64,000 nt of DNA from Candidatus Magnetocorallium paracelense. GTDB taxonomy: Bacteria > Nitrospirota > Thermodesulfovibrionia > Thermodesulfovibrionales > Magnetobacteriaceae. Below, one piece after another: positions 4,460 to 57,009 of this stretch. The position numbers and the translations under genes are program-made. The stretch is from positions 72,501 through 136,500 of the forward strand of contig JAREWP010000049.1 of NCBI GenBank assembly GCA_029001845.1, in the 5' to 3' direction. The notes beneath the pieces are model-generated. The model was not told the DNA's origin, made no database searches, and worked only from the letters and a program-made list of their open reading frames with translations. Within the stretch, counting starts at the first letter, position 1. The number at the start of each line of letters is the position of its first letter.

Positions 4460-4568
4460 ATCAATGTCATTAACTTAAGGGGTGAAGCACCTTCCGACGG
4501 AAGTGGAGCCTTCGAGTTTAGCCGGTGAAGGCGGAAGGTGCCTTGCCTCTTAAGTTAATGACATTGAT
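4460..4568. repeat. Palindromic element, family A copy 1
   Basis: Perfect 20-bp terminal inverted repeats (ATCAATGTCATTAACTTAAG and its complement) bound a 109-bp unit. The interior pairs imperfectly (CACCTTCCGACGGAAG against GGCGGAAGGTGCC). Read in reverse it matches the copy at 56622-56753 but lacks about 27 nt of that copy's centre. It lies between the rpmH promoter and the dehydratase cluster. The left flank shows no clear target duplication. Confidence 0.85.
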
Positions 4569-4677: not shown

Positions 4678-6045
4678 ATGGATTTTTCAGATGACAAAGA
4701 GAAACTTCTGGAAAAACTGCTCGCTCGCAAAGGTTATATAGTAGATGAGAAGAAAACAGAGAGGACTTCTGTCAGAGCCGGACAGTTGGAGAGGTTTATG
4801 AATGTAGCCAACAGCTCGGGTTATTCACGCAATGTCAAGGCAAATTCCGGCAATACAGGGTCTACAGTTACAAGAACTCTGACAAATGTAAAAGTTTTTC
4901 AGGAGGGATACAAGGAAGATTCTAAAGTAGTTTTTGTGGGAAATGTTATGAGTCCGGAAATTCTGTTTGCCATGAACATCGTTCCCTTTAATGTAGAGGT
5001 GCTTTCCGCTTTTTTTGCTACCAATGGCACGGCAAACCGGTTTCTGGATATTGGAGAGAAGAATTATATTTCAAGGGATACCTGCTCTGTCGTGAGGTGC
5101 GTTATAGGCGCGGCAATAGACGACTGCCTGCCCTTTCCCGACTTTATCGCCTTTGCTTCCTATCCTTGTGATGCGGCTTCCAGAATGTTTTACGCCTTAA
5201 GCGACCATTACAAAAAACCGTGGTTTTTACTGGATATTCCTTACAGAAACAATGATAAGAGCGTTATTTATCTTGCCGGCAGAATCAGGGAGATGAAAAA
5301 GAAGATTGAAGAGACCCTTGGAATAAAGACCGATGACGATAAACTGGCGACTGCTGTCGAATACTCCAAAGAGTGTTTAAAGTACTACGAAAAGATGATT
5401 AATTTGTGTCAAAAGCATAAACTCTCCATGTCTGTAGTTAAAACGGCTACGGACAGTATGAGCTATTTCGGTCTTATCGGTTCCAAAGAGATCATTGAAG
5501 CCATTCGTCTCAATTATGAAGAGGTGCTTGAGAGGGTAAAGGGCTTCGGTAATTTTGCAAACACCGGATCAGACAATAGACCTGTTGTAACATGGAGGGG
5601 CCTAATGCCCTATTACGATAATGAAATTATAAATTACTTTGAAAATGAGTGCGGGATAAGCATCATACCTGAAATGCTGACAGTTGATGTAGATGTAAGC
5701 GACCTGATTGGCACGGATGATATATATCACTTTCTTGCAAAAAAACTTCTTATTCTGTCTGGGAGCGGCAGTATGACTGACTCCTTACAATCAAGAAACT
5801 GGGATATACATGAAGAGTACGGCATCGACGGGGCCGTACTCTTTAATCAGTGGGGATGCAGACATACATTGAGCTGCGGTCAAATTCATCGTGACAGTTT
5901 AAGCAAAAGAAATTTTTCAGTATTGGAAATTGACGGAGATTTTGTGGACAGCAGGAACTACTCGTTTTCTCAGACAAAAGTAAGAATAGACGCCTTTGCT
6001 GAACTCTTAAAAAGGAGAAAAGAGGATGATTACCATCGGAATTGA
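4678..6045 (+). CDS. 2-hydroxyacyl-CoA dehydratase / BcrBC-HgdAB family, large subunit
   Basis: 455 residues from the ATG at 4678, chosen because AAGGAAGG sits 7-8 nt before it; the frame extends to 4591 without a ribosome site. The family binds a [4Fe-4S] cluster and receives an electron from an ATP-driven activator to allow difficult radical dehydrations or ring reductions. Seen: the family N-terminal block MSPEILFAMNIVPFNVE, SRDTCSVVRCVIG (C136, C141), SYPCDAASRMF (C164), and the C-terminal block QWGCRHTLSCGQIHRDSL (C394, C400) followed by FSVLEIDGDFVDSRNYSFSQTKVRIDAF. These match the ligand and closing motifs of HgdA/HgdB-type subunits. It overlaps the activator gene by 20 nt. The substrate is not deducible: no CoA-transferase, acyl-CoA dehydrogenase or ETF gene is adjacent. 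Confidence 0.8.
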   Translation: MDFSDDKEKLLEKLLARKGYIVDEKKTERTSVRAGQLERFMNVANSSGYSRNVKANSGNTGSTVTRTLTNVKVFQEGYKEDSKVVFVGNVMSPEILFAMNIVPFNVEVLSAFFATNGTANRFLDIGEKNYISRDTCSVVRCVIGAAIDDCLPFPDFIAFASYPCDAASRMFYALSDHYKKPWFLLDIPYRNNDKSVIYLAGRIREMKKKIEETLGIKTDDDKLATAVEYSKECLKYYEKMINLCQKHKLSMSVVKTATDSMSYFGLIGSKEIIEAIRLNYEEVLERVKGFGNFANTGSDNRPVVTWRGLMPYYDNEIINYFENECGISIIPEMLTVDVDVSDLIGTDDIYHFLAKKLLILSGSGSMTDSLQSRNWDIHEEYGIDGAVLFNQWGCRHTLSCGQIHRDSLSKRNFSVLEIDGDFVDSRNYSFSQTKVRIDAFAELLKRRKEDDYHRN

Positions 6046-6844
6046 TTCAGGCTCTTTGGCTACCAAGGGTGTCGCCCTTGGACCGGGAAAAGAGCTCCTC
6101 GCCTTCATCGTTGAATTGACCGGCGGAATTAGTAAAGACAGCGGTGAGCGAGTATATAAGCGGATACTGGATAAGGCCGGGATTTCGGAAAGTGACATCG
6201 ATTATGTGGTATCCACCGGATACGGACGGGAGAATCTTACATTTTCCAATAAACAGGTAACGGAGATCACCTGCCACGGAGCAGGAGTTAATTTTCTCTT
6301 CCCCGATGTCTCGACAGTACTGGATATCGGCGGACAGGACAGTAAGGCAATCAGGATCGATGAAAAGGGTCAGGTAACGGACTTTATAATGAATGACAAA
6401 TGCGCCGCAGGCACCGGCAGGTTTCTTGAAGTGATCGCAAAGGCACTGGATGTAAAACTCGAAAATCTGGGCGTTCTGTCGCAACAGACAGAAAACGAAG
6501 TCAACATAAGCAGCATGTGTACTGTTTTCGCTGAAACTGAAGTGGTTTCTCTCGTGGCCGGCAATACACCGATACCTGACATAATCCGAGGTGTGCACAA
6601 GTCAATAGCCAACAGGTCGGAAATACTTTTAAATAAAATAGGCATTGCAGAACCCGTCGCCATGAGCGGGGGAGTAGCGAACAATATTGGAATGGTTGCC
6701 GAGCTCGAGCGCAGGCTTAATACAAAACTAAAGATTTCCGAGAATCCCCAAATTATAGGCGCCCTGGGAGCTGCCGTGATAGCACGTAAGATAGTGGAAA
6801 AGCAATCAGCAAAAAAACCGACAACCAATAGCCATGTCCCATAA
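6026..6844 (+). CDS. ATP-dependent activator of 2-hydroxyacyl-CoA dehydratase (BadF/BadG/BcrA/BcrD family)
   Basis: 272 residues, typical of HgdC-type activators. ASKHA ATPase motifs are clear: IGIDSGSLATKGV at the N-terminus (phosphate 1), VLDIGGQDSKAI around residue 100 (phosphate 2), and AMSGGVANNIGM (adenosine). The cysteines that hold the dimer-bridging [4Fe-4S] cluster are present as C126 in NDKCAAGTGRF and C165 in SSMCTVFAETEVVSL. The activator couples ATP hydrolysis to a low-potential one-electron transfer to its partner dehydratase. The start overlaps the upstream gene by 20 nt and has AGGAGAAAAGAGG before it, so co-translation is expected. Confidence 0.92.
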   Translation: MITIGIDSGSLATKGVALGPGKELLAFIVELTGGISKDSGERVYKRILDKAGISESDIDYVVSTGYGRENLTFSNKQVTEITCHGAGVNFLFPDVSTVLDIGGQDSKAIRIDEKGQVTDFIMNDKCAAGTGRFLEVIAKALDVKLENLGVLSQQTENEVNISSMCTVFAETEVVSLVAGNTPIPDIIRGVHKSIANRSEILLNKIGIAEPVAMSGGVANNIGMVAELERRLNTKLKISENPQIIGALGAAVIARKIVEKQSAKKPTTNSHVP

Positions 6845-6847
6845 CAG

Positions 6848-6905
6848 CGCCTTTAACATGAACCGCTTCTGTCGGAAGGCGCTTCCCCCCCTTAAGTGAA
6901 TGATA
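6848..6905. repeat. Palindromic element family A, half copy
   Basis: The segment with AACATGAACCGCTTCTGTCGG and ending CTTAAGTGAATGATATTG matches the right half of the copy at 56622-56753. The left half is missing, so no terminal inverted repeat remains. It fills the gap between the activator and the small subunit and provides a spurious GTG (6896) in frame with the next gene. Confidence 0.65.
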
Positions 6906-6934
6906 TTGGTTGTTTGGTAACAACGTACAAGTAT

Positions 6935-8056
6935 ATGATTTTAGATAATTTAATAGAAGAAATAGCCAATATACACAAAAACAGACAAAACCTCATAAAG
7001 TCTGCAAATAAACGCGCTCTGGGCTGGCTGTCTATATATACTCCCGAGGAAATTGTATATGCCGCCGGCATAATCCCCTTCAGAATTACAGGTGAAACCC
7101 GTACAGAGACTCCCAAAGCGGGAGGCCATATGCACAGAAACATTTGTCCCTATGTGTTGAGCTGTTTGGAAGAGGGGCTGGACAGAGTAAATGATTTCAG
7201 TGATGGAGTAATAATAGCGAATGCCTGCGACGCCAGGCTGGCTCTTTATGATGTATGGAAGTATTTTTTGAATATGGATTTTGTCCATATGCTGGATTTA
7301 CCCAAGCAGATCGATTCGTCTACAAAAGATTACTTTGTCCATGAAATATATCATCTTATGGAAGCTATTGAGGATCATTACAATTGCAAGATAAAGGAAG
7401 ATGATTTGAGCAACGCCATCAATCTATGTAATGAAACACGTATGCTTTTGCAAAACATTTATGAACTGAGAAAAAAACCTTCTCCGCCGATAACGGGCAT
7501 TCAGGCTCTTGATATCGTAAAGTCAAGCATGACAGGACTAAAAAAGGAGTTCAATACAAAAGCATCACGTTTATTAGAGAAACTTGAAAAATCGGATATG
7601 GACAGCATCAAGGAAAAGCATAGGGTAATGATCTGCGGCGGTTTTTTCGATCATACCCATATAATAGAACTTATTGAGAAGATGGATGCAATTGTGGTAT
7701 GCGAAGATTTAAGTAATGGTATTAAGTATTTCGAGGGTCGAGTGGATATCATGAAAGAGCCTGTAAAAGCACTTTCCGATTATTATCTTGAAAAAGCCAC
7801 CTGTGCGAGGATGGCGGATTCGGAAAAACGTTTTAACCATATGTGGCAGCTTATTGAGGACTATAATGTACAATCCGTAATTTACATCTCTCTGAAGTTT
7901 TGCGATAGCAACCTTATCGATTTTTATTATCAAAAGAAGAGATTGTATGAAAGAGATATTCCCGTACTTTTGATCGAAACCGAACGTACTCCAACCAATT
8001 TGGAACAAATACGTACGCGCATACAGGCGTTTCTGGAGTCAATGGGCTTGTTCTGA
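6935..8056 (+). CDS. 2-hydroxyacyl-CoA dehydratase / BcrBC-HgdAB family, small subunit
   Basis: 373 residues from ATG 6935; a longer reading from GTG 6896 would start inside repeat sequence and is less likely. Family features: GWLSIYTPEEIVYAAGIIPFRI near the N-terminus, HRNICPYVLSCLEEGL (C71, C77), IANACDARLALYDVW (C98), the middle block RVMICGGFFDHTHIIELIE, and YISLKFCDSNLIDFYYQKKRL (C323) followed by PVLLIETERTPTNLEQIRTRIQAFLE. It complements the large subunit at 4678-6045. The set large-activator-small is the full requirement for an HgdABC-like enzyme, but a double-cubane-cluster protein or other reductase cannot be excluded. Confidence 0.8.
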   Translation: MILDNLIEEIANIHKNRQNLIKSANKRALGWLSIYTPEEIVYAAGIIPFRITGETRTETPKAGGHMHRNICPYVLSCLEEGLDRVNDFSDGVIIANACDARLALYDVWKYFLNMDFVHMLDLPKQIDSSTKDYFVHEIYHLMEAIEDHYNCKIKEDDLSNAINLCNETRMLLQNIYELRKKPSPPITGIQALDIVKSSMTGLKKEFNTKASRLLEKLEKSDMDSIKEKHRVMICGGFFDHTHIIELIEKMDAIVVCEDLSNGIKYFEGRVDIMKEPVKALSDYYLEKATCARMADSEKRFNHMWQLIEDYNVQSVIYISLKFCDSNLIDFYYQKKRLYERDIPVLLIETERTPTNLEQIRTRIQAFLESMGLF

Positions 8057-8130: not shown

Positions 8131-9606
8131 TTATTGAACCATCAGTATGGCGCCTGACAAGGGGCCAAGACTCGGCCCTTGTATAGAACTGTTCCTGACT
8201 ATATAGGAGTTTCCATACAAAAGACAAGAGAGCTTTGTATTATCGGGAAAACGATTTCCTGTCGGAACATCCACAGAATACTCCCCTTCGTTGTTGTTTA
8301 TTATTACTACAATTTTTTCCTCGCCCAAGGAGCGCATAAAAGCATAGACGTTTTTCCCGGAATCGGATGACAGGTTGATATAATTGCCTCTCCTGAGAGA
8401 GGGGTGTGCTTTTCTTATGGATATAAGATTCCTAAAAAAGCTTAAAAGAGAGATATCCCATGCCGATTCGTCCCAAGGCATGGCTCTTCTGCAATCTGGA
8501 TCTCTTTTGCCGGATAATCCGATTTCGGTTCCATAATAAATTGCAGGAGCGCCGGGATATGTCATTTGGAAAAGCGTTGTAAGGAAGAGGATTCTTTTAT
8601 CTTCCCTGGCAAGAGTAAGATATCTCACTGTGTCGTGACTTTCGATGAGGTTATATTGAGAGAAGAGGACATCTTTATGATAATTCAGGAACATAGTTTC
8701 TATTCTTTTTGCAAAATCTCCGGCCCTTATGGTCTTTTTGGGCCTGTGACCCTGTTTTTTCATTATACCTTTGTCCAGCTTATCGCCAATAAAAAAACTT
8801 ATACAGGCAGTGGCGAAACCATAATTCATAATTGCATCGAGCTGATCTCCCATGAGCCATTTCTTTGCTGTTCTTTTTTTTTCGTCAACCCAGATTTCTC
8901 CGACAATATAGGCGTCCTGATTCGATCCTTTTACAACATCACGAAACTCGCGCCAAAAGCTGTGGTCATCAATCTCTTTAAAGGCATCCAGCCGCCATCC
9001 GTCAATGCCTCGCTCTGTCCAGTATTTCGCTACATTCAGCAGGAAACGTCTTACATCGGGGTTTTTTACATTGAATTGTGGAAGCCTCTTGTTTCCGTGC
9101 CAGGATTTGTAAGTATGTTGACTCCCGTCGGAGTAGGCATTTAAGGGAAATCCCTTAATGTGAAACCAATCGACATAAGGAGATTCGCTTCCACACTCAA
9201 GAATATGATTGAACTGGAAAAAACCTCTTCCTGCATGATTAAATACACCATCCAATATGATTCTTATTCCCCTGGAATGTGACTCTTTCAGTAATTTTTC
9301 GAATGCTCCGTTACCGCCTAAAAGAGGGTCTATTTCAAAATAATCGTGAGTATGATAACGGTGATTGGCAGGTGATTGGAAAATGGGATTCAGATAGATG
9401 GCGTTTATTCCCAGCTCCTCCAGATAGTCCAGTTTTTCGGTAATGCCGAACAAATCTCCGCCTTGAAATGAATGATAGTCAGGAGGACTTCCCCAGGGTT
9501 GTAAACCGGAAGGTTTATATGAATCAAGACCTTTTGCGAAACGATCGGGAAATATTTGATAAAAAATTGCGTCTTTTACCCAATCGGGAGCGATGTTATT
9601 CCTCAT
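8131..9606 (-). CDS. GH13 alpha-amylase family hydrolase (neopullulanase/cyclomaltodextrinase-like)
   Basis: 491 residues from ATG 9606, with GGGGA about 11 nt upstream; a TTG-started extension of 12 residues runs into a terminator hairpin. GH13 regions are complete: DGVFNH (region I), LPQFN (region V), GWRLDAFKEID with nucleophile D207, VGEIW with acid/base E237, and ESHDT with D325. AIFYQIFPDRFAKG at the N-terminus and the LPQFN form point to the GH13_20 branch, which cleaves maltodextrins, cyclodextrins or pullulan. The CBM34 domain usual in that branch is missing and no signal peptide is seen, so a cytoplasmic enzyme acting on internal glucans is likely. It is close in sequence to the enzyme at 52329-53816 and lies downstream of a glycogen synthase-like gene. 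Confidence 0.92.
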   Translation of the reverse strand: MRNNIAPDWVKDAIFYQIFPDRFAKGLDSYKPSGLQPWGSPPDYHSFQGGDLFGITEKLDYLEELGINAIYLNPIFQSPANHRYHTHDYFEIDPLLGGNGAFEKLLKESHSRGIRIILDGVFNHAGRGFFQFNHILECGSESPYVDWFHIKGFPLNAYSDGSQHTYKSWHGNKRLPQFNVKNPDVRRFLLNVAKYWTERGIDGWRLDAFKEIDDHSFWREFRDVVKGSNQDAYIVGEIWVDEKKRTAKKWLMGDQLDAIMNYGFATACISFFIGDKLDKGIMKKQGHRPKKTIRAGDFAKRIETMFLNYHKDVLFSQYNLIESHDTVRYLTLAREDKRILFLTTLFQMTYPGAPAIYYGTEIGLSGKRDPDCRRAMPWDESAWDISLLSFFRNLISIRKAHPSLRRGNYINLSSDSGKNVYAFMRSLGEEKIVVIINNNEGEYSVDVPTGNRFPDNTKLSCLLYGNSYIVRNSSIQGPSLGPLSGAILMVQ

Positions 9607-9642
9607 ATAGATGGTGTCCCCTATTAGAGAATTAAACAACAA

Positions 9643-35354: not shown

Positions 35355-35562
35355 ATTTCCCTCCCTGAAACATTGTTGATATGATTCTACCGTAACACAA
35401 TAACAATAAAGCAATTTACGTGCCGATTCGTATATAAAAATACAGAGGGTATAAAGCCATTGAATCATTAGGGTTTTTCAGGGGAAATCGTACGATAGGG
35501 GACTCGGGAATATGTGTATTCAAAAGGAGGTGTATACACCTGTATGCGCATACCTGAGTATA

Positions 35563-35753
35563 CACTAAGGGTTGACTCAAAAATAAATTCGTAATTAAAA
35601 GAGACAGATTTGCATTATATTTGGTTGCACTGAATGAGCAAAACCGCAGGCATAGCAGCGCTATGTTGAGGATTTTGCGATTGAAGTGCAATCAAAGATG
35701 ATGTGAAGGTGTCACCTTTTAATGCGAATTTATTTTTGAGTCAACCCTAAGTG
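35563..35753. repeat. 191-bp MITE-like element with 29-bp terminal inverted repeats
   Basis: Arms 35563-35591 and 35725-35753 match at 28 of 29 positions (core GGGTTGACTCAAAAATAAAT). The interior pairs too: GGTTGCACT against AAGTGCAATC, and GAGCAAAACC with CATAGC against GCTATG with GGATTTTGCG. The whole unit would fold into one long imperfect hairpin. A single end of the same element is at 48012-48060. No coding capacity. Confidence 0.85.
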
Positions 35754-35902
35754 TTTAAGTTAACGTCCTTCGGACGGACTTTTTTAAACTGATCGGCTGT
35801 CCGGTTTAGGTTTCAACTGTCTTAATCACCTATGGTTTCTAAAACAAGATATAATCATTCCCACAGTCCCTTAAGCAGGAATCCAGAGTTTCGTGTCCTT
35901 TC

Positions 35903-52328: not shown

Positions 52329-53816
52329 TTATGACTCAGCCAACAACACGACACCCCTTCGCGCGTCTATCTCCGGCCCTGTTACTGCCCCGTTATTTAC
52401 TATATACTCACCATTATTTAGAAGACACCGAAGCGTTGCACCATCATTTAGGCTGTTTTTCAGAGGGATGTCTACTTTATAAGGTTTTGTACTGTTATTT
52501 AAAATCACTACAATGCTCTCTTTGTCGAGAAAACGGACAAAGGCGTAAACTCCTTTCTCGGCGTCGCAGTAAAGGCTCTTGTAGTCTCCTCTCCCAAGGG
52601 AGCGGTATGTTTTTCTGATATGTATAAACTTTTTATAATGGTTTAGTAAGTCCATATCCCATACATTACTGTCCCAAGGCATCGCCCTTCGACAGTCAGG
52701 GTCTCTTCCGCCTTCAAGACCTATCTCGCCGCCATAATATATGGAAGGCGCTCCCGGATAAGTCATCTGGAAGATCGTAGTCAGTTTCAATATTTCCTTA
52801 TCTCCTCCGCAAAGGGTTAAATATCTGGCGGTATCGTGACTGTCCAGAAGATTGTACTGATTGTATACAATTTCTCTGTGATAACGTTTCAACAAAACCT
52901 CTATCTGTTTTTCAAACTCTAAGGCGTTCATGGATACTTTTTTCGGCACATGACCCTGACCTGCCACCAGGGAAACATCCAGAGCATCACCAATAAAAAA
53001 TCTAATGCATATCGATGTAAATCCGTAATTCATAATTGCATCGAACTGGTCGCCTTTAAGCCATCTCTCTCCTGTTTCGGATATCTCATCCTTCCATATT
53101 TCGCCAACAATATAGGCATCACGATTTTTTCCCTTTACAGCCTCCCTGAATTCTTCCCAGAAGTTGTCGTCATCGATTTCTTCAGGCACATCAAGACGCC
53201 ATCCGTCTATTCCGAAATCTATCCAATATGAAGCTACATCCAATAGGAATCGCCGCACCTGAGGGTTATCCGTGTTGAACTTAGGGAGTTCCCTTAAACC
53301 ATACCATGCCGAATAGTTAGGTTTCTTACCGGAGTCATAGGCGTTTAAAGGAAAATCATTTATATGAAACCAATCGATATAGGGAGAATTGGGGCCACAC
53401 TCAAGTATGTGGTTAAACTGGAAAAAACCACGACTTGCATGATTAAAAACACCGTCCAGTATAACCCTTATTCCTCTGTTATGAGCAGCATCGAGAAATG
53501 TCTTAAATGCTTTGTTGTCTCCCAACAGAGGGTCCGTTTTAAAGTAATCGTGAGTATGGTAGCGGTGGTTCGAAGCGGATCTGAAAATTGGATTGAGATA
53601 AATTGCATTAATTCCCAAATCGCTCAGATAGTCGAGTTTTTCTGTCATCCCCGGGAAATCGCCTCCCTGAAAACTGTGGGCCGTGGGCTTTGCTCCCCAA
53701 GGTTGGAAGTTGCCTTTTTCTCTCGACGAAGCACTTCGTGCAAAACGGTCGGGAAATATTTGATAAAAAACGGCATCTTTCAACCAGTCAGGCGTAGTAA
53801 TCCGATCGTCTTTCAT
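52329..53816 (-). CDS. GH13 alpha-amylase family hydrolase, second paralogue
   Basis: 495 residues, aligned end to end with the enzyme at 8131-9606. DGVFNH, LPKFN, GWRLDVPEEID with nucleophile D209, VGEIW with E239, and DSHDT with D328 are intact. The start is ATG 53816. Again there is no CBM34 domain and no signal peptide. Region II differs between the paralogues (DAFKEID vs DVPEEID), which could change specificity. It stands alone here, without the glycogen synthase neighbour. Likely a cytoplasmic maltodextrin/cyclodextrin hydrolase. Confidence 0.92.
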   Translation of the reverse strand: MKDDRITTPDWLKDAVFYQIFPDRFARSASSREKGNFQPWGAKPTAHSFQGGDFPGMTEKLDYLSDLGINAIYLNPIFRSASNHRYHTHDYFKTDPLLGDNKAFKTFLDAAHNRGIRVILDGVFNHASRGFFQFNHILECGPNSPYIDWFHINDFPLNAYDSGKKPNYSAWYGLRELPKFNTDNPQVRRFLLDVASYWIDFGIDGWRLDVPEEIDDDNFWEEFREAVKGKNRDAYIVGEIWKDEISETGERWLKGDQFDAIMNYGFTSICIRFFIGDALDVSLVAGQGHVPKKVSMNALEFEKQIEVLLKRYHREIVYNQYNLLDSHDTARYLTLCGGDKEILKLTTIFQMTYPGAPSIYYGGEIGLEGGRDPDCRRAMPWDSNVWDMDLLNHYKKFIHIRKTYRSLGRGDYKSLYCDAEKGVYAFVRFLDKESIVVILNNSTKPYKVDIPLKNSLNDGATLRCLLNNGEYIVNNGAVTGPEIDARRGVVLLAES

Positions 53817-54304: not shown

Positions 54305-54350
54305 AACTCCCTATTGGAACGATACTATTCATTTAAGGGATAATAGACCT

Positions 54351-54397
54351 CAATGTCATTAACTTAAAGGGTGAAGCACCTTAAGTTAATGACATTG
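54351..54397. repeat. Palindromic element family A, shortest copy
   Basis: 47 bp: CAATGTCATTAACTTAA, a GGGTGAAGCACC centre, and TTAAGTTAATGACATTG. It is the family A element with its whole interior deleted. The 9-mer TAGACCTCA occurs on both sides (54344-54352 and 54401-54409), a likely target-site duplication. Confidence 0.85.
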
Positions 54398-54541
54398 TAT
54401 TAGACCTCATGAAACAAGGGCTTTATCTTTGCTCCCACGAACGTTTACAATATCTTTTGTTTTCATTGTTGCTCACTTTAGATTTTAACTGCTTTGTTAT
54501 CAAAAGTATATCATAAAATTATAAATGAAGGAAAAAGTGAG

Positions 54542-54790: not shown

Positions 54791-56617
54791 ATGGAAAAAA
54801 AGAGTTTACGAAATATTGCAATAATTGCGCATGTCGATCATGGTAAGACAACTTTGGTGGACGCCATGCTAAAGCAGAGCGGGATTTTCAGGGAGAATCA
54901 GGAGGTCGTGGAAAGAGTGATGGATTCCATGGACCTCGAGAAAGAGCGCGGTATCACGATACTGGCGAAGAATGCTTCGATACAATTAAATGATGTGAAG
55001 ATTAATATTGTCGATACCCCCGGTCATTCCGATTTTGGAGGAGAAGTCGAGAGAAGCCTTAATCTGGTGGATGGCGCTTTATTACTCGTTGATTCGAGCG
55101 AAGGTCCTCTCCCCCAAACAAGATTTGTCGTAAAAAAAGCTCTTGAAAAAAAATTGCCAATCATAGCCGTGATTAATAAAATAGACCGAAGCGATGCACG
55201 CATAGAAGAAGTAGTAAACGAGATATATGACCTTTTTATTGATCTCGACGCTACTGAGGATCAGATCGAGTTTCCCATTCTATATACAAACGCCAAGCAG
55301 GGAGTTGCTCACAGAGTACCGAGAGACAGTTCGACGGACCTGTCTCCCCTTTTTGAAACAATTATATCGGAGATACCCGGCCCGAGCGTGGACGATGCAA
55401 AGCCCCCTCAGTTTCTTGTAACCAATCTCGATTATGATCCATACGTTGGCCAACTTGCCATTGGCAGGCTCAGTAATGGTTCTTTGGAGATGAATACCTG
55501 GTACAACCTGTGTAGTGAGGGAGATGTTTTTACTCCAGTCAAATTTTCGGCTCTCTATACCTTCAGGGAGTTAAAGAGGACGCAGACAGAGAAGGTAGAG
55601 GCAGGCGATATTGTTGCAGTTGCCGGTGTTGATAACGTAAAGATCGGAGACACAATTTCTTCCAAAGAGAATCCCGCTCCTTTACCTCGTATCAGTGTTG
55701 ACGAACCTGTTGTTTCCATGATTTTTTATGTTAATAACAGCCCCTTTTTCGGTAAAGAGGGAAAGTTTCTTACTTTTGCTCATCTTAAGGATCGTATTGA
55801 AAAAGAGTCTCTCAAGAATGTCGCAATCAAGGGGAAGACTCTGGATCGAGCAGACGCCATAGAGGTGTATGGCAGAGGGGAGCTGCAAATGGCTGTCCTG
55901 ATCGAGACTATGCGCAGGGAAGGATATGAGTTTATGGTGTCCAGGCCCAGTGTAATTGTTAAAACCGAGAACGACAAAGTACATGAACCTGTTGAACGCC
56001 TGTTTTTAGATATTCCCGAGTCCTGTGTTGGAATTATTACTGAAAAGCTTTCAATGAGAAAAGGCAGAATGACGGACCTTACAAACAGAGGAAGCGGTCG
56101 AGTGCATCTGACTTTTTCTATTCCCTCCAGAGGTTTGATAGGTTTTAGAAATACCTTTCTTACAGATACAAAGGGCGCAGGTATTATGAACACCCTTTTT
56201 GAAGGTTACAACCCCTGGTTTGGCGCAATACCTCAAAGGTCCACAGGCGCATTGGTTGCAGACAGGACGGGAAGAGTAACGGCTTATGCAAGCCTGGCCA
56301 TGGAGGACAGAGGAGAACTCTTTATAGAAGTCGGCGCCGAGGTGTATGCAGGCATGGTGATAGGTGAGAGGAATAGAAAAGGCGACCTCGAGGTAAATAT
56401 AACAAAGGAGAAAAAGCTTACAAATATAAGAAGTTCTACATCTGAGGCAACTGTCGTGTTAAGACCTCCCAGAATTCTTTCTCTCGATCAGTCTATAGAA
56501 TTTATAGCCGAAGACGAGCTGGTAGAAATTACACCTAAACACATCAGGTTAAGAAAGATCGACCTCGATTACAATATCAGGGCATCGAAAAGGAAAAAAG
56601 AAAAATTCGGAGCATAA
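54791..56617 (+). CDS. typA: Ribosome-associated GTPase TypA/BipA
   Basis: 608 residues, full length. The GTPase motifs are AHVDHGKTT (G1), RGITILAKN (G2), DTPGHSDF (G3), NKIDR (G4) and TNAKQG (G5 region). An EF-Tu domain II, then domain III/V and the BipA C-terminal domain (RGLIGFRNTFLTDTKGAGIMNTLFEGY) follow. TypA acts on ribosome assembly and stress responses. The sequence TAAGGAGAACATAAAACCGAT before the ATG supplies a good ribosome site. The stop codon lies inside a 12-bp direct repeat produced around the palindromic element that follows. Confidence 0.97.
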   Translation: MEKKSLRNIAIIAHVDHGKTTLVDAMLKQSGIFRENQEVVERVMDSMDLEKERGITILAKNASIQLNDVKINIVDTPGHSDFGGEVERSLNLVDGALLLVDSSEGPLPQTRFVVKKALEKKLPIIAVINKIDRSDARIEEVVNEIYDLFIDLDATEDQIEFPILYTNAKQGVAHRVPRDSSTDLSPLFETIISEIPGPSVDDAKPPQFLVTNLDYDPYVGQLAIGRLSNGSLEMNTWYNLCSEGDVFTPVKFSALYTFRELKRTQTEKVEAGDIVAVAGVDNVKIGDTISSKENPAPLPRISVDEPVVSMIFYVNNSPFFGKEGKFLTFAHLKDRIEKESLKNVAIKGKTLDRADAIEVYGRGELQMAVLIETMRREGYEFMVSRPSVIVKTENDKVHEPVERLFLDIPESCVGIITEKLSMRKGRMTDLTNRGSGRVHLTFSIPSRGLIGFRNTFLTDTKGAGIMNTLFEGYNPWFGAIPQRSTGALVADRTGRVTAYASLAMEDRGELFIEVGAEVYAGMVIGERNRKGDLEVNITKEKKLTNIRSSTSEATVVLRPPRILSLDQSIEFIAEDELVEITPKHIRLRKIDLDYNIRASKRKKEKFGA

Positions 56618-56621
56618 AACC

Positions 56622-56753
56622 AATGTCATTAACTTAAGGAGCAAAGCACCATCCGCCTTCATCGGCTAAACTCGAAGGCTCCGCTTCGCTGCGCCTTCTC
56701 AAACATGACCCGCTTCCGTCGGAAGGTGCTTCACCCCTTATGTTAATGGTATT
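56622..56753. repeat. Palindromic element family A, longest copy
   Basis: Starts AATGTCATTAACTTAAGG and ends CCCTTATGTTAATGGTATT; interior arms GGCGCAGCG..., CATCCGCCTTC and GACGGAAGGTGCTTC... pair with each other. It is flanked by perfect 12-bp direct repeats GAGCATAAAACC (56610-56621 and 56754-56765). The left repeat contains the typA stop codon, so the insertion took place exactly at the gene's end and kept the frame intact. The longest copy, likely closest to the ancestral element. Confidence 0.88.
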
Positions 56754-57009
56754 GAGCATAAAACCGTAATCATGTAACAGAGTCTTGAGGAGTTAGTTGG
56801 GTTGTGACTCTCGGTCGTCGGCATCGAAGTGTCATACTATTTACCGATGTACAATACATTTTTCATTTCAAAATATTGCGTTTCTGTCGCCGGCTTTCTT
56901 AAAATAAGAAATCAGTTATGCAGGTATTTTACCTGGAAACATAAAATTTTGAGGTGACAGCTATTTAAAGGAACGGACAAAAGTCAAAAGTGTCCGAAAA
57001 ATATAAAAC

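Follow-up and report, generated by a model that had tools for sequence, protein, structure and literature searches.

Genes of the cluster

We analysed a stretch of 64,000 nucleotides (64 kb, hereafter the window) from Candidatus Magnetocorallium paracelense, a member of Nitrospirota (contig JAREWP010000049.1), and within it a cluster of three genes, designated L, A and S (Table 1). L, A and S encode a heterodimer of the benzoyl-CoA reductase/2-hydroxyacyl-CoA dehydratase (BCR/HAD, HGD-D) superfamily together with a BadF-type activator. The reading frames are all intact, at the coordinates of the original prediction, and the last 20 nt of L also belong to A. Ahead of L there is a Shine-Dalgarno-like AAGGAAGG. 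The most probable start of S is ATG 6935; the alternative GTG 6896 falls inside a palindromic repeat. Analyses of S used positions 6938-8053.

Table 1. Genes of the cluster and the copies of a palindromic repeat beside them
Feature	Position	Strand	Remarks
L, large catalytic subunit, HadB/BzdO-like	4678..6045	+	455 aa; C136, C164, C394; catalytic Glu107
A, ATP-dependent activator, HadI/HgdC-like	6026..6844	+	272 aa; cluster cysteines C126, C165
S, small electron-entry subunit, HadC/BzdN-like	6935..8056	+	373 aa from ATG 6935
Dispersed palindromic repeat, full copy, inverted ends (CAATGTCATTAACTTAAG...)	about 4461..4568		directly upstream of L
Same palindromic repeat, half copy (one end only)	6863..6908		A/S joint

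Each of the three separate genes has a single Pfam domain above cut-off. L and S match PF06050 (HGD-D; E 1e-51, 177 bits, and E 1.7e-86, 291 bits, respectively; cut-off 28.4), and A matches PF01869 (BcrAD_BadFG; E 6.8e-63, 213 bits, cut-off 31.5). These are the only two HGD-D matches in the genome (6.0 Mb, 99.6% complete), and A is its single activator gene over cut-off. Among curated NCBIfam equivalogs every match is under cut-off; the one model that A passes is that of the general activase domain. Of the curated models, the double-cubane reductase NF040772 comes closest to S, with 228 bits; L reaches 77 bits and the cut-off is 350.

The AlphaFold2 models of L and S (mean predicted local distance difference test score, pLDDT, 82 and 93) match BzdNO, HadBC, MbdON and DCCP far above all other folds. 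Top matches in PDB are HadB (3o3m_A, Z 38.7) and BzdO (8s02_A, Z 38.0) for L, and BzdN (8s02_B, Z 49.5) for S. Relatives in PDB were also obtained by sequence. L carries about 60 extra residues ahead of the part alignable to known structures. The activator has kept both cluster cysteines, C126 in NDKCAAG and C165 in SSMCTVF, and S has kept C70, C97, C322 and C289. Frames, Pfam domains and ligand cysteines thus agree with the predicted set of large subunit, two-cysteine activator and small subunit.

Phylogenetic placement

Besides those of its own genome, no close orthologues were found in 148 relatives at E 1e-10. In 395 genomes of the phylum there were 7 other L matches at E 1e-5, with 20-25% identity. 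A collection of genome contigs scanned with L alone and a collection of viral contigs scanned with S both yielded nothing. When the genome contigs were scanned with S and a plasmid relative, 80 loci were obtained. Plasmid and phage collections gave distant trios only, from Rhizobium leguminosarum and from a faecal record of 7 kb named "Bacteriophage sp.". The latter (MT837370.1, L045) has a CooC-like ATPase gene beside an S-L-A trio and appears to be a bacterial contig.

The nearest relative is a locus (L050) in the metagenome-assembled genome (MAG) of Omnitrophica bacterium RIFCSPLOWO2_01_FULL_45_10, with the order S-L-A. Identity to it is 37.0% for L, 54.2% for A and 49% over tree columns for S, so that L has changed faster than A. 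A profile built from the window and three of the members recruited a branch of 28 members. Profile searches around the best relatives, at their E-value limits and with the starting genomes counted in, found members in 2 of 237 Omnitrophota genomes (the same two among 292 in a second, overlapping set), 8 of 218 Spirochaetota genomes, 19 of 97 genomes in the class of a Syntrophomonadaceae MAG and 3 of 142 in the class of an Aminicenantes MAG.

Trees were quick searches, from which near copies or fragments had been dropped (18 of 107 L rows, 32 of 108 S rows). In the L tree (89 proteins, DCCP as outgroup), the window groups with L050 with an approximate likelihood ratio (SH-aLRT) support of 96; the second Omnitrophota member (87) and Spirochaetota members (98) join next. 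All this lies inside the 28-row branch (96), and HadB, BzdO and MbdO stand in a separate group of 37 rows (95). In the S tree (76 proteins) the window again joins L050 (99) and the second Omnitrophota member (89), with BzdN, HadC and MbdN placed away from it. Approximately unbiased (AU) tests, which covered the HadB, HadC and BzdO placements, rejected window L inside the HadB group (p 6.2e-6), and window L with BzdO plus L073 (p 0.0028). They also rejected the HadC group as the place of window S together with L050 S (p 0.001). L and S therefore lie outside every characterised clade tested, although the long branches call for care in reading the placements. The phylogenetic check proposed with the original prediction thus returned no tight placement in a characterised clade. 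Together with the missing substrate-defining genes (see below), this leaves the room for a new reaction that had been predicted.

No paper describing the branch by title or abstract was found in the open-access literature, a scope that makes the absence weak. As a separate observation, a Nitrospinae MAG (G431; loci L046, L071, L073, L124) holds dozens of HGD-D-type matches, 53 of them to the L profile.

Cofactor ligands

The available text of PMC11971306 gives C36, C73, C100, C263, C293 and C327 as ligands of the [8Fe-9S] double cubane in BzdN, and C95, C128 and C380, with Glu65 and His131, for the [4Fe-4S] site of BzdO. According to the same text, HADs lost both double cubanes, HadB has alanine at the position of BzdO His131, and new functions may arise through loss of one half of a double cubane.

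In L, the three cysteines C136, C164 and C394 align with cysteines of BzdO, HadB, MbdO and DCCP. They are present in all 28 branch members and in 75/75 other alignment rows, and Glu107 is likewise kept throughout the branch (28/28). At BzdN positions 36, 73, 100 and 327 window S reads S,C,C,C, and at 263 and 293 it reads S,C, leaving four of six cysteines. The pattern is close to that of HadC (P,C,C,C and A,C), where the equivalents of C36 and C263 are absent too and C293 is kept. L050 S has serine at the same two positions and retains the other four cysteines. In both window S and L050 S, two of three distal-cubane ligands are replaced by serine, a loss that parallels the one in HAD dehydratases.

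There are two limits to the diagnostic value of these residues. Firstly, MbdN, a reductase subunit, lacks three of the six cysteines in our alignment (QCCC FS). The six-cysteine set alone thus cannot separate reductase from dehydratase, and defines at most the Bzd type of class I BCR. Secondly, BzdO His131 aligns with Ala167 of window L, at a position that is mostly occupied by small residues across the branch and by Phe in MbdO. His131 as well defines at most the Bzd type. The second Omnitrophota member (G554, L167:3283-4515) shows another pattern, with S residues C100, C327 and C293 lost (Thr and Asp at the positions of C100 and C327), and its L subunit retains all three ligands.

Gene context

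The genes around the cluster are a PRA-CH (hisI-type) gene, yidC, and genes for an alpha-amylase, a GT4 glycosyltransferase, pyruvate kinase and an ABC substrate-binding protein. No gene adjoining the cluster names a substrate, and no lipid-synthesis gene was recognised beside it. Representatives of CoA-transferase, acyl-CoA dehydrogenase, electron-transferring flavoprotein (ETF) and AMP-ligase had no match anywhere in the 64 kb, as the original prediction had it. Type III CoA-transferase (PF02515) has no match in the genome either; type I CoA-transferases and ligases were searched in the window only.

We then counted CoA-type genes (CoA-transferases, acyl-CoA dehydrogenase, ETF, AMP-ligase; single representatives, phmmer 1e-8) within 6 kb of the related loci. 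They occur at 1 of 28 branch loci, at none of 4 in the next-nearest group and at 32 of 76 loci outside, the latter coming from the scan with S plus two plasmid/phage loci. The comparison is not one of independent events, since the members are related; ten out of 28 belong to a single close group, which shares, where flanks allow, the order Lon, LonB, YsxC, S-L-A, BirA, BioY (names by eye). The single count is moreover a lower bound, for a gene resembling NDP-forming CoA ligases adjoins L181 and is outside the representative list. Several loci have short flanks. Because of the difference between 1/28 and 32/76, the orphan state is a property of the whole branch. The trio does lack substrate genes, then, but this is common to its kin and not special to the window.

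The sole CoA-type exception is the Spirochaetota locus L177 (3108-12125). Here FabG, an open reading frame resembling acyl carrier protein (87 aa, DSL motif by eye), FabZ, two ketoacyl synthases (KAS), A, S, L and an acyl-CoA ligase stand in a row; it is an HGD-type radical system inside an operon resembling type II fatty-acid synthase. This hints that the acyl substrate might be carrier-bound in at least one member of the branch.

Other members stand alone, near radical SAM/SPASM genes (5/28) or with fusions of A. In L182 (7466-9394; class of the Aminicenantes MAG) S and A are fused into a protein of about 643 aa, adjoining L and a FakA/DegV-like gene. Activators extended by about 190 N-terminal residues occur in L066 (8293-9939), L178 (11625-13220), L179 (6898-8370) and L180 (11788-13221), each directly upstream of S-L; the extra part of the L066 activator has no Pfam match. 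TetR regulators are found beside L in L179 and L180. The idea that the radical SAM/SPASM protein of the Syntrophomonadaceae branch is a tetraether-lipid synthase was dropped, its best PDB match being the peptide maturase SkfB with 53 bits (tetraether synthase, 30 bits). DUF1295 occurs at 4 of 28 loci, three of which (L113, L170, L171) are close kin with shared gene order. FabI, DUF1295 and GlpD near Syntrophomonadaceae-branch loci are common to close kin and carry little weight.

Palindromic repeat and gene order

Apart from the two copies in Table 1, the palindromic repeat is present at about 54350-54398 (short) and 56620-56756 (long), next to other genes. With up to 3 mismatches allowed, its end sequence is found at 7 places in the window, where 0.16 would be expected by chance. 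On both grounds, the repeat is a dispersed element and not part of the enzyme system. We saw no copy immediately downstream of S; of the predicted repeats which flank and split the cluster, the splitting one is thus real, and flanking applies to the upstream side only.

Within the branch, the order L-A-S is found in the window alone; at the other 27 loci S lies directly upstream of L. Outside the branch, L-A-S was found at none of 78 loci. The gene order is therefore unusual as predicted (1/28), but the telling reference is the S-L(-A) of the branch and not activator-alpha-beta. The half repeat coincides exactly with the A/S joint that is new in this order, and the place where S would be expected is taken by the full repeat. 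These positions are compatible with a rearrangement of gene order in the window lineage, without proving it. Of the mobility or recent rearrangement suggested originally, the latter may thus fit the repeats at two joints; mobility of the cluster is a conjecture, the repeats being dispersed elements.

A few further features of the window may be listed. The two distant repeat copies bracket a BipA/TypA-like GTPase gene (54791-56617, named by eye). Two similar alpha-amylase-like genes, at 8131-9642 and 52329-53816 (the second by eye), lie about 44 kb apart and are probably paralogues. A large inverted repeat at 35559-35757 has 98-nt arms, 74% complementary, with 3 nt between them. No tRNA was found in the window, and promoter and terminator scans of it stayed at chance level.

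A model of the reaction and its alternatives

We suggest, with somewhat more confidence than doubt, that the trio is an ATP-activated, dehydratase-like heterodimeric Fe-S radical enzyme acting on an acyl thioester made elsewhere. In the model, an A homodimer would hold one [4Fe-4S] cluster, bound by C126 and C165 of each protomer. It would accept an electron from a low-potential donor and, with hydrolysis of ATP, force it onto the S cluster (C70, C97, C322). S would then pass it to L, whose [4Fe-4S] cluster (C136, C164, C394) has an open site and where addition of the electron to the thioester carbonyl may produce a ketyl-type radical, with Glu107 (equivalent to BzdO Glu65) as acid/base. As in 2-hydroxyacyl-CoA dehydratases, the electron would be recycled over many turnovers, instead of ATP being spent per electron as in benzoyl-CoA reductase. 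The substrate would be made and activated by genes elsewhere. We infer an acyl thioester by comparison with HadBC, BzdNO and MbdON, which all act on one. The dehydratase-like mode is favoured because S lost two of three distal-cubane ligands and L has Ala at the position of His131. Judging from these residues, we hold it with moderate confidence for the window lineage, with the reductase mode as main rival. Among known systems, (R)-2-hydroxyisocaproyl-CoA dehydratase HadBC with HadI (PDB 3o3m, 4eht) resembles such an enzyme in its heterodimer with single activator, the three L ligands and the Glu107 equivalent.

Several observations weigh against this proposal. Of 26 branch S subunits, 23 have the complete set of six double-cubane cysteines. 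Taken overall, the branch thus appears reductase-like, which would make a dehydratase mode a local conversion. Serine is able to ligate iron, and a modified double cubane with serine as ligand is possible in window S. Further, the end branch of window L is long (1.64, compared with 0.43 for L050; for S, 0.67 and 0.45). Window L has also partly lost the L signature of the branch (CSFxRC, WxHLxPY, Trp at 341, HxGCR, DC at 421-422), having F86, V138, G308, S341, Q391 and F422.

A BCR/DCCP-like reductase, which would spend ATP per electron while L-S reduces a stable bond (arene, double bond or small molecule), is a possible but clearly less probable alternative. The class I benzoyl-CoA reductase BzdNO (PDB 8s02) is the best fold match of S and, jointly with HadB, of L. 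DCCP and DCCP-R (PDB 6eno, 7yyl) provide the best curated profile for S, and they too are orphans with an activator and an unassigned physiological substrate. The complete cysteine sets of most relatives point the same way. However, neither window S nor L050 S has the [8Fe-9S] ligand set, and window L has no His131. DCCP is homodimeric, with a single kind of six-cysteine subunit, and the window encodes two unlike subunits, both of which fail the NF040772 cut-off. Class I BCRs in general use two different activators, as the MbdONPQ entries show (MbdP, MbdQ), but only one activator gene is over cut-off here.

A bolder reading is that the branch is a new functional class acting on carrier-bound or lipid acyl chains (acyl-ACP or membrane acyl) and not on catabolic acyl-CoA, and that the window/Omnitrophica lineage independently converted a double-cubane reductase to a single-cubane enzyme. 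The operon of L177, the scarcity of CoA-type neighbours and the serine replacing both lost cysteines point to this reading, which we regard as rather unlikely. The L050 locus, sister of both L and S, has the same three genes, serine at the same cubane positions and no CoA-type neighbour that we could find. It differs in its gene order and in retaining the branch-signature residues of L.

It is unlikely, too, that the cluster is a decaying or re-purposed relic, whose original reaction is no longer needed, with L evolving fast and S losing ligands. The low identity of L to its sister compared with A, the lost signature residues and the cysteines missing from S of the other Omnitrophota member would fit a relic. 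Against decay speak three intact frames, the conserved L ligands and Glu107, well-folding models of L and S and the Shine-Dalgarno-like motif ahead of L.

A membrane-lipid ester reductase working like PlsA/Ger is an improbable explanation. The plasmalogen and ether-lipid synthases PlsA/PlsR and Ger combine activator and reductase/dehydratase domains and act on lipid esters, which indicates, as far as the available text of PMC13274423 and PMC12838417 goes, that enzymes with such domains can work without CoA. Lipid-type genes also lie near some branch members (DUF1295 and the FakA/DegV fatty-acid-kinase-like gene of L182). PlsA/Ger are, however, fused multidomain proteins, unlike the three single-domain genes of the window; three of four DUF1295 loci are closely related to one another, and the window cluster itself has no recognised lipid gene beside it.

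Finally, an ordinary HgdAB/HadBC-type dehydratase of known substrate, with its CoA-transferase elsewhere, would share the three parts and the HadC-like ligand pattern in S, but is most improbable given the AU rejections of the HadB and HadC groups and the absence of PF02515 from the genome. Further differences of the branch or cluster from HadBC are an L signature of its own and the lack of CoA-transferase, acyl-CoA dehydrogenase and ETF genes in the window.

Significance

BCR/HAD enzymes, with which anaerobes carry out chemically difficult reductions and dehydrations, reach reduction potentials matched by few biological systems. Most characterised ones accompany a catabolic CoA pathway, DCCP and PlsA/Ger being exceptions. 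Taken together, the trio belongs to a heterodimeric branch almost without CoA-gene neighbours. Its lineage has lost cubane ligands, its gene order is unique to this genome, and it does not make a new category of enzyme. The occurrence of the branch in at least four phyla, hardly ever with CoA genes, suggests a use that has so far gone unrecognised. The serine pair of the window and Omnitrophica, among six-cysteine relatives, makes the idea of half-cubane loss, as put forward in the available text of PMC11971306, directly testable. On the bolder reading above, the window/Omnitrophica lineage would be one more natural experiment, independent of the others, in losing the distal sub-cluster.

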